A stretch of 35,297 nt of DNA from Candidatus Muproteobacteria bacterium RIFCSPHIGHO2_12_FULL_60_33. GTDB taxonomy: Bacteria > Pseudomonadota > Gammaproteobacteria > Acidiferrobacterales > Sulfurifustaceae. How positions within the stretch are numbered: position 1 is the stretch's first letter; the number at the start of each line of letters is the position of its first letter. The stretch is taken from NCBI GenBank assembly GCA_001785195.1, contig MFTB01000024.1, forward strand, positions 1 to 35,297, written 5' to 3'. The notes beneath the pieces were generated by a model. It did not search any database, was not told the origin of the DNA, and worked only from the letters and a program-made list of their open reading frames with translations. A program made the translations under genes and the position numbers. Positions 9,682 to 27,231 of this stretch are shown piece by piece.

Positions 9682-9711
9682 CCAGAACCCAGCCCAAAAC
9701 AAAAAACACAG

Positions 9712-9797
9712 CAACCGCAGATAAACGCCGATTAGTAATAGAAGTTATTCTTTATCTGCGTTCATCCTAAAAATAAATCTGCGTTAGTCCGCGTTCG
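9712..9797. repeat. R1 intergenic inverted repeat (CGCAGATAAACGC type), copy 1
   Basis: aaccgcagataaacgccgat ... tttatctgcgttcatc ... aaatctgcgttagtccgcgtt. Lies between uspA and tatD. Confidence 0.8.
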
Positions 9798-17733: not shown

Positions 17734-18477
17734 TTAGTTCATGTACATCCCGCCGTTCACGTGCAGGGTCGTGCCGGTAATATAGCCCGCCGGCGGCGAG
17801 GCCAGAAATGCCACGGCCGCGGCCACTTCTTCGGCCAGCCCCAGTCGCCCCAGGGGGATCTGCTTGAGCAGCGCCTCCTTCTGCGCCTCGGGCAGGGCGC
17901 GGGTCATGTCGGTGTCGATGAATCCCGGCGCCACCGCATTGACCGTGATGTGGCGCGAACCCACCTCGCGCGCCAGCGCCTTGGTGAATCCGATCAGGCC
18001 GGCCTTGGCGGCGGCGTAATTTACCTGCCCCGCGTTGCCGATCGCTCCCACCACCGAACTGATGCTGATGATGCGCCCCGAGCGCGCCTTGGTCATGGCG
18101 CGCAGACAGGCCTTGCTCATGCGGTACACCGATTTGAGGTTGGTATTCAGAATGACGTCCCATTCCTCCTCGGACATGCGCAGCAACAGATTGTCGCGCG
18201 TGATGCCGGCATTGTTGACCAGAATTGTCGGCGCGCCGCCGGATTTTTCGATTTCGGACAGAACGGCGGCGATCGATTCCGCGCTGTTCACGTCCAGCAT
18301 CATTCCTTTTCCCGCGACGCCCTTTGCTTTCAGCGCCGCGCTGATCTTTTCCGCGCCCTCGCTGGAGGTCGCGGTGCCAAACACCTGCGCACCCTGCCGA
18401 CCCAGCTCGAGCGCAATCGCCTGTCCGATGCCGCGGCTGGCGCCGGTGACCAGCGCGATCTGACCTTTCAACAACAT
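17734..18477 (-). CDS. fabG: 3-oxoacyl-ACP reductase
   Basis: 247 aa SDR: ALVTGASRGIGQAIA, ILVNNAGITRDNLLLRM, ISSVVGAIGNAGQVNYAAAKAGLIGFTKALAREV. Confidence 0.97.
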   Translation of the reverse strand: MLLKGQIALVTGASRGIGQAIALELGRQGAQVFGTATSSEGAEKISAALKAKGVAGKGMMLDVNSAESIAAVLSEIEKSGGAPTILVNNAGITRDNLLLRMSEEEWDVILNTNLKSVYRMSKACLRAMTKARSGRIISISSVVGAIGNAGQVNYAAAKAGLIGFTKALAREVGSRHITVNAVAPGFIDTDMTRALPEAQKEALLKQIPLGRLGLAEEVAAAVAFLASPPAGYITGTTLHVNGGMYMN

Positions 18478-18505
18478 AAAAATAACTCCAAATAAAAAAA
18501 TAAAT

Positions 18506-18774
18506 GGACAGGATTTACAGGATTAACAGGGCGAGCCGGAAAGAGACGAAGACACTTAACGTGTCTTCGTCCCGGCGAGCGCCCCGCCACGGATGGCGGG
18601 GCCGAGCATATCGAGGTCTTCGTGGCCACGCCAGGGATGGCAAGCATGCCGTCCCTGGCGTCGCCACCGGAACTCCGATTTACCCCGGCCCGCACATCCC
18701 TGCGCGGGCGCTCAGCGGCGCCGATGCACGTTAAGTGCATCGGCGACAACCCCGCCTCGCCCTGTTAATCCTGT
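18506..18774. repeat. R3 compound repeat: ACAGGATTA-type arms enclosing several hairpins
   Basis: Perfect 19-bp inverted repeat ACAGGATTAACAGGGCGAG (18517-18535) / CTCGCCCTGTTAATCCTGT (18756-18774). Internal hairpins at 18545-18571, 18581-18602, 18625-18665, 18688-18709 and 18720-18744. Confidence 0.9.
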
Positions 18775-19716
18775 CTATTCCGTTTTTCCAACGACGTTCA
18801 GTGCTTCACGAAGCGTGGCTGGATCGTATACTGGCAACGTCTCGACGGTTTTCACGATACGCTTGTTCAGGCCGGCCAGCACCTTGCCCGGACCGCATTC
18901 TACTATCCGGGTCACGCCGGCGGCGGCCATTTTCTGAATGGTTTCGACCCAGCGCACCGGCGATTCTATCTGGCGCACGAGCGCATTTCTAATCGCTTGC
19001 GGGTCGGATTCCGCCTGCACGTGCGTGTTATGGATCACCGGTATTTGCGGGCGGCGGATGTCCGCCTGTTTCAGCCGCTCGGCCATCTGCTGCGCCGCCG
19101 GGTGCATGAGCCGGCAATGCGAAGGCACGCTCACCGGCAACGGCACGGCGCGCTTGGCGCCGGCGGCCTTGGATTGTTCCACGGCGCGGGCCACGGCCGC
19201 GGCGGCGCCGGCAATTACGGCCTGACCGGGCGAATTGAAATTCACGGCCTCGAGCACCTCGCCCTGTGCCGCCTGCTCGCAAAGTTTGCGCACCGCGTCA
19301 GCGTCCATTCCCAGAATCGCCGCCATGGCGCCCTGTCCGGCCGGCACCGCCTGCTGCATGAAGCGCGCGCGATCCGCGACCAGTTTCACGGCCTCGGCAA
19401 AACCGAGTGCCTCGGCGCACACCAGCGCGGAGTATTCGCCCAGGCTGTGGCCGGCCATGGTTTGCGGTCGTGGGCCGTTCGCGGCCAGCCACGCGCGCCA
19501 GGTCGCCACGCCCGCCGCCAGCATGGCCGGCTGTGTGATCTCGGTCTGATTCAGTTTTTCCTCCGGTCCCTGTTCCACCAGTTGCCAAAGGTCTTTACCC
19601 AAAGCCTCGGATGCTTCGGCGAAGGTTTGTTTGACAATGGGAAAATCAGCGGCCAGCGTATTCATCATGCCGACCGACTGCGAACCCTGACCTGGAAACA
19701 CGAAAGCGAGCGTCAT
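18775..19716 (-). CDS. fabD: Malonyl CoA-ACP transacylase
   Basis: 313 aa, LAFVFPGQGSQSVGMM, MAGHSLGEYSALVCAEAL, GKVLAGLNKRI. Confidence 0.97.
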   Translation of the reverse strand: MTLAFVFPGQGSQSVGMMNTLAADFPIVKQTFAEASEALGKDLWQLVEQGPEEKLNQTEITQPAMLAAGVATWRAWLAANGPRPQTMAGHSLGEYSALVCAEALGFAEAVKLVADRARFMQQAVPAGQGAMAAILGMDADAVRKLCEQAAQGEVLEAVNFNSPGQAVIAGAAAAVARAVEQSKAAGAKRAVPLPVSVPSHCRLMHPAAQQMAERLKQADIRRPQIPVIHNTHVQAESDPQAIRNALVRQIESPVRWVETIQKMAAAGVTRIVECGPGKVLAGLNKRIVKTVETLPVYDPATLREALNVVGKTE

Positions 19717-19731
19717 ATTTAAATTTTCATT

Positions 19732-19841
19732 AACCGCAGATGAACGCAGAATTATATATCGCAGATAAACGCTGATTTACAGATATCAGACTTTGATCAA
19801 TCTGCGTTCATCCAGATTTCATATCTGCGTTTATCTGCGGT
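19732..19841. repeat. R1 intergenic inverted repeat, copy 2
   Basis: aaccgcagatgaacgcaga...cgcagataaacgctgat ... atctgcgttcatccagatttcatatctgcgtttatctgcggt, between fabH and fabD. Confidence 0.88.
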
Positions 19842-19849
19842 AAAAATTA

Positions 19850-26414: not shown

Positions 26415-26424
26415 TATTTTCTTC

Positions 26425-26528
26425 ACGCAGATAAACGCAGATGATGAATACAGAAGAACTCAGATTTGTAAATTCACATTTCAGAAAATCCGCGTTTATC
26501 TGAGTTTTCATCTGCGTTCATCTGCGGT
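26425..26528. repeat. R1 intergenic inverted repeat, copy 3
   Basis: acgcagataaacgcagat ... atccgcgtttatctgagttttcatctgcgttcatctgcggt, between pycB and maf. Confidence 0.88.
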
Positions 26529-26539
26529 CCCAATTTTTA

Positions 26540-27121
26540 ATGCCTTTAAAACTAATTCTCGCTTCGTCCTCGCCCTATCGCCGTGAGCTGCTGGAACGCC
26601 TCAAGATTCCCTTCGAAGTAATGGCGCCCGAGGTGGACGAGACGCCGCGTCCCGGCGAGACCCCGGAAAAACTGGTGGAGCGGCTGGCCATCGAAAAGGC
26701 GCGCAAAATCACCGGACAAAAGGCGGGTACGCTGGTGATCGGATCGGATCAGGTGGCGGTCTACAACGGCAGCATCGTGGGCAAGCCGCACAACCATGAC
26801 AAGGCCGTGGAACAACTGCGGTCCGCTTCCGGCAAAACCGTCACGCTCTACACCGGTCTGGCGCTGGTCAACGCCGATACCGGACGCGTGCAGCACGAAG
26901 TCATTCCCTATCGCGTAACGTTCCGCGCACTCACCGACGCGCAGATCGAATCTTATCTGCGCAAGGAACAACCCTACTCCTGTGCCGGCAGCGTCAAGTC
27001 GGAGGGATTGGGAATCGCGCTGCTGGAGAAATTCGAGGGCGACGACCCGAATACGTTAATTGGTCTGCCACTCATCCGCCTGGTGCGGATGCTCGAAAAC
27101 GAGGGGATTAAGATAATATAA
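26540..27121 (+). CDS. maf: Maf/YceF family nucleotide pyrophosphatase
   Basis: 193 aa, LILASSSPYRRELLERLKIPFEV, LVIGSDQVA, SCAGSVKSEGLGIALLEKFEGDDPNTLIGLPLIRL. Confidence 0.95.
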   Translation: MPLKLILASSSPYRRELLERLKIPFEVMAPEVDETPRPGETPEKLVERLAIEKARKITGQKAGTLVIGSDQVAVYNGSIVGKPHNHDKAVEQLRSASGKTVTLYTGLALVNADTGRVQHEVIPYRVTFRALTDAQIESYLRKEQPYSCAGSVKSEGLGIALLEKFEGDDPNTLIGLPLIRLVRMLENEGIKII

Positions 27122-27130
27122 AAACGAAGC

Positions 27131-27225
27131 AACCGCAGATTAACGCGGATGAACGCAGATTACAGCAAGAAATAAACTCGAAGTTTTATGTTTTGATCCG
27201 CGTTTATCTGCGTTCATCTGCGGTT
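27131..27225. repeat. R1 intergenic inverted repeat, copy 4 (cleanest)
   Basis: Left arm AACCGCAGAT-TAACGCGGAT-GAACGCAGAT (27131-27160), right arm ATCCGCGTTTATCTGCGTTCATCTGCGGTT (27196-27225). Confidence 0.93.
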
Positions 27226-27231
27226 CCAGAA

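Follow-up and report, generated by a model that had tools for sequence, protein, structure and literature searches.

The hairpin island between fabD and fabG in a Candidatus Muproteobacteria genome is probably a composite of non-autonomous mobile palindromic repeats

Introduction

In Candidatus Muproteobacteria bacterium RIFCSPHIGHO2_12_FULL_60_33, an island of compound hairpins separates fabD from fabG. Is it a structure of the fab mRNA, or DNA that came to this site independently of the genes around it? We addressed this question within the window, i.e. the whole stretch of 35,297 nucleotides analysed (contig MFTB01000024.1, positions 1 to 35,297), as well as in the rest of the genome and in its relatives.

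Structure of the island

The island, which holds five hairpins in all, occupies positions 18508-18783. It contains a perfect 19-bp inverted repeat (ACAGGATTAACAGGGCGAG, 18517-18535, and CTCGCCCTGTTAATCCTGT, 18756-18774), surrounded by a longer, imperfect inverted pair (18508-18539 and 18752-18783, 84%). The perfect repeat had been reported in a first-pass annotation of the sequence, as had three inner hairpins with their GGATG motifs and a right arm directly against the fabD stop codon, and all were found again: the arm ends at 18774 and fabD, on the minus strand, occupies 18775-19716. The two outer hairpins, both with perfect 11-bp stems, were located at 18545-18571, as annotated, and at 18719-18745, for which the annotation (18720-18744) was one pair short. 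Their cores, CACTTAACGTG (18553-18563) and CACGTTAAGTG (18727-18737), are indeed exact reverse complements. Folding of both strands, which had been proposed as a check, gave energies beyond chance, with no shuffle equally good: -184.6 kcal/mol on the plus strand (z -15.7) and -193.1 kcal/mol on the minus strand (z -12.9).

The island had been presented as one structure; it is a two-unit composite of half-elements nested in an older ACAGGATT palindrome. It resolves into two half-elements of 111-113 nt each (~112 nt), at 18531-18641 (+) and 18648-18760 (-), placed tail to tail. From its 5' end, a half-element is characterized by the sequence G[CT]GAG, a P1 helix, and hairpins A, B, and C. Hairpin A has an 11-bp stem, with a core that is usually CACTTAACGTG; a second type has GTCC[AG]GTGGAC. 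The left hairpin C (18630-18641) can alternatively pair with 18648-18659, at the palindrome centre. The features are as follows (R1 is a covariance model).

18508..18530, plus strand: left ACAGGATT arm of the older host palindrome (ACAGGATTTACAGGATTAACAGG); from ACAGGATTAACAGG copies in the genome and the arms-only S. limicola locus
18531..18641, plus strand: left half-element (P1 and hairpins A, B, and C); model R1, 99.6 bits
5' junction of the left half-element, plus strand: ..ACAGG^GCGAG
18535..18576, plus strand: P1 helix, GCCGG (18535-18539) with CCGGC (18572-18576), closing hairpin A; from sequence and as covarying helix 1
18545..18571, plus strand: left hairpin A (11-bp stem, TTAAC loop); from sequence and covariation
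18581..18602, plus strand: left hairpin B, with an ACGGAT loop (C-ANGGAN-G); from sequence and covariation
18630..18641, plus strand: left hairpin C, with an AGGGAT loop; from sequence and fold
18648..18760, minus strand: right half-element, inverted; model R1, 121.3 bits, E 3e-27
18760/18761, minus strand: 5' junction of the right half-element, ..ACAGG^GCGAG
18648..18659, minus strand: right hairpin C, with an AGGGAC loop; from sequence
18688..18709, minus strand: right hairpin B, with an AGGGAT loop; from sequence and covariation
18719..18745, minus strand: right hairpin A (11-bp stem; its core reads CACTTAACGTG on this strand); from sequence and covariation
18761..18774, minus strand: ACAGGATTAACAGG arm on the right, directly next to the stop codon of fabD; from sequence
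18775..19716, minus strand: fabD, the upstream neighbour; TIGR00128, 366.6 bits (NCBIfam)
17734..18477, minus strand: fabG, the downstream neighbour; NF004197, 407.2 bits (NCBIfam)

No terminator-like or promoter-like pattern was found in 18440-18830, and a simple terminator was rejected on this ground. A second iterated palindrome family (CGCAGATAAACGCAGAT / ATCTGCGTTTATCTGCG) was observed elsewhere in the window, at 9702-9793, 19721-19846, 26419-26532, and 27120-27228.

Copies and distribution

In the genome of origin (a 1.86-Mb, 116-contig assembly, 79% complete), BLAST returned three more copies that are nearly complete (89-90% identity), along with several partial copies. The searches for the arms and for the hairpin module that had been suggested were both productive: the ACAGGATTAACAGG arm, with at most one mismatch, is present about 145 times in this genome, almost equally on the two strands (control pattern, 0), and model R1 recovered 47 half-elements. 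Elsewhere within the window, no additional copy of the arms was found. Counted with R1 at E <= 0.01, the model's E-values being rough, each of the eight genomes scanned contains 10-58 half-elements: besides the genome of origin, 58 in G016, 40 in G005, 22 in G011, and 10-32 in four others. We took G005 to be Sulfuricaulis limicola HA5 and G011 to be Sulfurifustis variabilis skN76 (PMC5024460). By BLAST, the element was found in 25 out of 145 relatives, mostly of the same family, in searches that covered sampled genomes among the candidates listed; named matches were to Sulfuricaulis, Acidiferrobacteraceae, Candidatus Muproteobacteria, and Gammaproteobacteria. Within the Acidiferrobacterales, the half-element is scattered through the genomes, with tens of copies in each.

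Phages, viral contigs, and E. coli genomes gave no match to the element at the settings used. Rfam gave no match in the window, and at other loci only tRNAs and sub-threshold matches; the open-access literature searched contained no description of the half-element family. A fragment related to the P1-B part was observed on a small Pseudomonas aeruginosa plasmid, pHPA0008-4 (R1 40.5 bits; L312 1462-1572). We also observed type II elements, in which an A module with a GGGTGCA..TGCACCC hairpin lies inside other palindromes, CTCCCCTTGCGGGAG and TCATTCCGGCGAAAGC (L065, L071, L016, L243).

Presence and absence at the same sites

The gap between fabD and fabG was compared among relatives. S. limicola and four other relatives have the arms-only ACAGGATT palindrome, without half-elements; G003 and G002 have two unrelated palindrome families; and in G001, G007, G010, G012, and G013 the gap is about 20 bases. 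The palindrome occupying this gap in G003 is related to the second family of the window. Judged from these sites, the ACAGGATT palindrome would be older than the half-elements it hosts. Moreover, the four composites of the genome of origin and nine composites of relatives have no flanking DNA in common.

The uvrC gene carries an in-frame half-element in G005 and G009 (L189 677-787; L261 666-776); among the remaining relatives that were read at this gene, none has it. Units in tandem at a single site can be as different from each other as copies elsewhere (e.g. 0.78 versus 0.81), a sign that insertion may have recurred at one GG. In other cases tandem units are identical, which suggests that they multiplied locally, and some arrays (L112-L114) have the look of local amplification more than of recurrent insertion, a point against the mobile-repeat reading.

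Junctions and target duplication

The half-elements follow a 5' GG joining rule, and at many sites their target is duplicated. The 5' end lies directly after GG in 126 out of 139 half-elements and after AG in 9; the junction reads GG^G[TCA]GA, mostly with GYGAG after GG. The 3' end is variable. In 42 out of 138 cases, the target sequence that precedes the junction recurs behind the element (score >= 12; with swapped flanks, 99% scored <=9, with a maximum of 12 in 414), some of these being units of one tandem array, so that independent events are fewer. The duplication is of variable length, from 15 to 78 nt or more. At the composite of the window no target duplication was found, a point against the mobile-repeat reading.

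Among the targets are tRNA genes, entered at the T arm for 3' ends (..AGG^ATTYGAACC) and after the D-loop GG for 5' ends. Duplicated tRNA ends are carried at tRNA-Met, -Pro, -Phe, -Thr, and others, and in the closed genome G075 half-elements form an array around the tRNA-Met gene, every one of them having a 5' or 3' piece of the tRNA (L112 1380-2820). An intact tRNA lies within 60 nt of 10 out of 83 half-elements in four genomes; the expectation is ~0.5% by area in S. limicola, or nearer 5% when restricted, more fairly, to intergenic DNA. Other targets are the starts of rng, of a response-regulator gene, and of another gene (names read by eye). At the 3' ends of rpmJ and pstB (genes read by eye; L195, L245; L100, L238), the GG^GTGAG of the element supplies the TGA stop. 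Since the target is duplicated, tRNA genes and gene starts stay whole.

These junctions bear on an alternative in which no dedicated enzyme acts: hairpin-induced template switching during replication, primed by GG microhomology, with quasipalindrome correction keeping the palindromes perfect. Many targets can themselves fold into hairpins (tRNA genes, palindromic repeats), the stems are nearly perfect, the 3' end is variable, and the uvrC target itself contains GGCGAG, resembling the 5' end of the element, all of which agrees with such errors. However, the 5' end is constant, the loops are conserved, and tens of copies are dispersed, which points to a recognised unit, and we consider replication errors an unlikely origin.

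Stem covariation

The first-pass annotation had claimed that pairing in the stems is kept despite changed sequence, and the alignment of 27 half-elements bears this out. In the proposed structure, 99.7% of cells are paired; sliding the partners by 1-3 columns lowers pairing to 27-40%. Both sides have changed in 16 out of 27 pairs, and 89 double-change cells were counted versus 20.5 ± 3.6 in shuffles, a count that kinship among these related sequences can inflate. Neither of the outcomes that had been named as speaking against the claim, unpaired stem substitutions in other copies or the absence of any other copy, came true.

Among 83 distinct A hairpins, we found 897 Watson-Crick pairs, 4 G-T pairs, and 12 mismatches. 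Since G-U pairs should be tolerated in an RNA helix that is under selection, their near absence argues for a DNA palindrome. We infer that the stems belong to palindromic DNA, which recognition or correction keeps perfect, rather than to an mRNA structure. A fabD-fabG mRNA structure, implied by the earlier annotation, is unsupported, because relatives lack the element at this locus, the unit occurs at other genes, and G-U pairs are few. Conserved fab regulation was rejected on the evidence of those same relatives. Between fabD and fabG, the element most likely rides along as a passenger and gives the mRNA a hairpin of high stability, and its effect on expression of the fab operon, if any, would be secondary.

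A role in RNA could also be sought in CsrA/RsmA binding, with a transcript that binds CsrA and regulates fabG, or with the copies serving as a CsrA sponge. The published CsrA/RsmA consensus is (A/U)CANGGANG(U/A) (PMC6692469), and the loops of hairpins B and C match it: in the seed alignment they read C-ANGGAN-G, with A and GGA constant and both N variable. The ANGGA motif is in hairpin loops of the window as well as in the seed alignment, but in part of the family only, i.e. in 31 out of 55 distinct B hairpins and not in type II copies. The fold is very stable, yet the stems covary with almost no G-U pairs, and the element lies on both strands, in many contexts, and is missing between fabD and fabG in relatives. 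For part of the family, an RNA role in line with the fit of the loops to the consensus has a low probability; as an account of the island, this explanation appears improbable.

Candidate enzymes

Genes for Y1 transposases were found in the genome of origin and in most element-bearing relatives. Y1 matches were not found in some carriers (G001, G014, and G015), all with few element matches, and no clear copy of the element was found beside the Y1 genes examined (~1.5 kb) or the reverse transcriptase genes examined. A core match with one mismatch near a Y1 gene (L078) lies inside a coding frame and was attributed to chance. We therefore rejected Y1/RAYT as a linked enzyme, since it is widespread but not linked to the element. 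No transposase tied to the element was identified, and this counts against the mobile-repeat reading.

Reverse transcriptase gave no match in the genome of origin and in several carriers. Retroposition of a bacterial SINE-like kind, in which the 3' GG of the target would prime reverse transcription of a complementary-strand RNA, agrees with a junction that is fixed on one side only and with target duplications that differ in length, the opposite end being variable, but is very improbable given that RVT_1 has no match in the genome of origin or in G007 (99% complete, 32 copies), that no clear element copy lies at the reverse transcriptase loci examined, and that the stems are Watson-Crick only.

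Comparison with known systems

A likeness was found in E. coli rtT (tyrT/tyrV, rttR), which is described as one locus. Read by eye, rtT consists of hairpin-bearing tandem units of ~178 bp that carry the tRNA-Tyr 3' end, as half-elements carry tRNA ends, and its break falls at the T-arm position seen in the half-element family (antisense ..AAGG^ATT). In contrast to this single locus, the half-element family is at tens of sites. Model R1 gave no match at the E. coli locus (NC_000913.3 1285800-1287900), nor did the element in E. coli genomes by blastn or the half-elements in Rfam, which lists an RtT family. By the sequence tests run, rtT and the half-element are not relatives. A stretch resembling an E. 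coli rtT unit (GGTTCGA...GAGTAATC) was observed adjoining a half-element (L009 1600-1960).

REP and BIME, the elements that go with RAYT (TnpA-REP) transposases, are likewise short extragenic palindromes with tens of copies, inverted pairs, and Y1 genes in most carriers. The 5' mark of REP is a GTAG-type tetranucleotide; the half-element has GG^GYGAG instead, lacks a linked RAYT gene flanked by the repeat (within ~1.5 kb around the Y1 genes examined), and differs further in its target duplications. MITEs (ERIC, Correia) are small, palindromic, non-autonomous, and mostly intergenic, as here, and share with the half-element a non-coding, dispersed state in many copies without a transposase of their own. 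They have terminal inverted repeats and a fixed short duplication, whereas half-elements have unmatched ends and long, variable duplications; the ACAGGATT composite does have inverted repeats. With IS200/IS605, the half-element shares insertion 3' of a short conserved target and a subterminal left-end hairpin (GG^, then P1/hairpin A). IS200/IS605-type insertion is precise and gives no target duplication, in contrast to the 42 out of 138 duplicated copies, a further point against the mobile-repeat reading. REP, MITEs, and IS200/IS605 each fail in at least one defining feature.

Integron attC sites were rejected, as the similarity is of motif only: attC has its core sites at the base of the folded site, and here the attC-like ACTTAAC/GTTAAGT is found in the apical loop. 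Rickettsia palindromic elements (PMC10969869) also insert in frame into coding genes, as the half-element does in uvrC, but differ in having unrelated hosts; tRNA and gene-end targets with duplication are prominent in the half-element family.

Proposed mechanism and significance

Neither an excision nor a fresh insertion was seen as such, which counts against the mobile-repeat reading. On the evidence as a whole, the island is probably a composite of non-autonomous mobile palindromic DNA repeats. As to the enzyme class, a single-strand transposase (Y1/HUH or RAYT-like) is our tentative candidate. A trans-acting enzyme would mobilise the half-element as hairpin DNA, a single-strand transposase recognising hairpin A, and the 5' end of the element would be joined to the 3' end of the target at GG. 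The other end might be resolved by repair synthesis that restarts upstream and copies the target again; essential genes would survive because the duplication rebuilds them.

We further put forward, as a speculative and somewhat doubtful extension, an undescribed mode of mobility in which the 5' end of hairpin DNA is joined to a target 3' GG and 15-80 nt upstream of the nick are recopied, allowing repeated entry into essential tRNA and protein genes while rebuilding them, and of which E. coli rtT would be another product.

The stems offer a caution, as strong covariation alone is no proof of structured RNA, and here the scarcity of G-U pairs points to DNA. In this family, natural sites that combine a fixed 5' junction with duplicated targets and a variable opposite end are numerous, and these features make the insertion mechanism tractable by comparison. 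The family also provides a comparative handle on the origin of repeats that carry tRNA ends, such as E. coli rtT.
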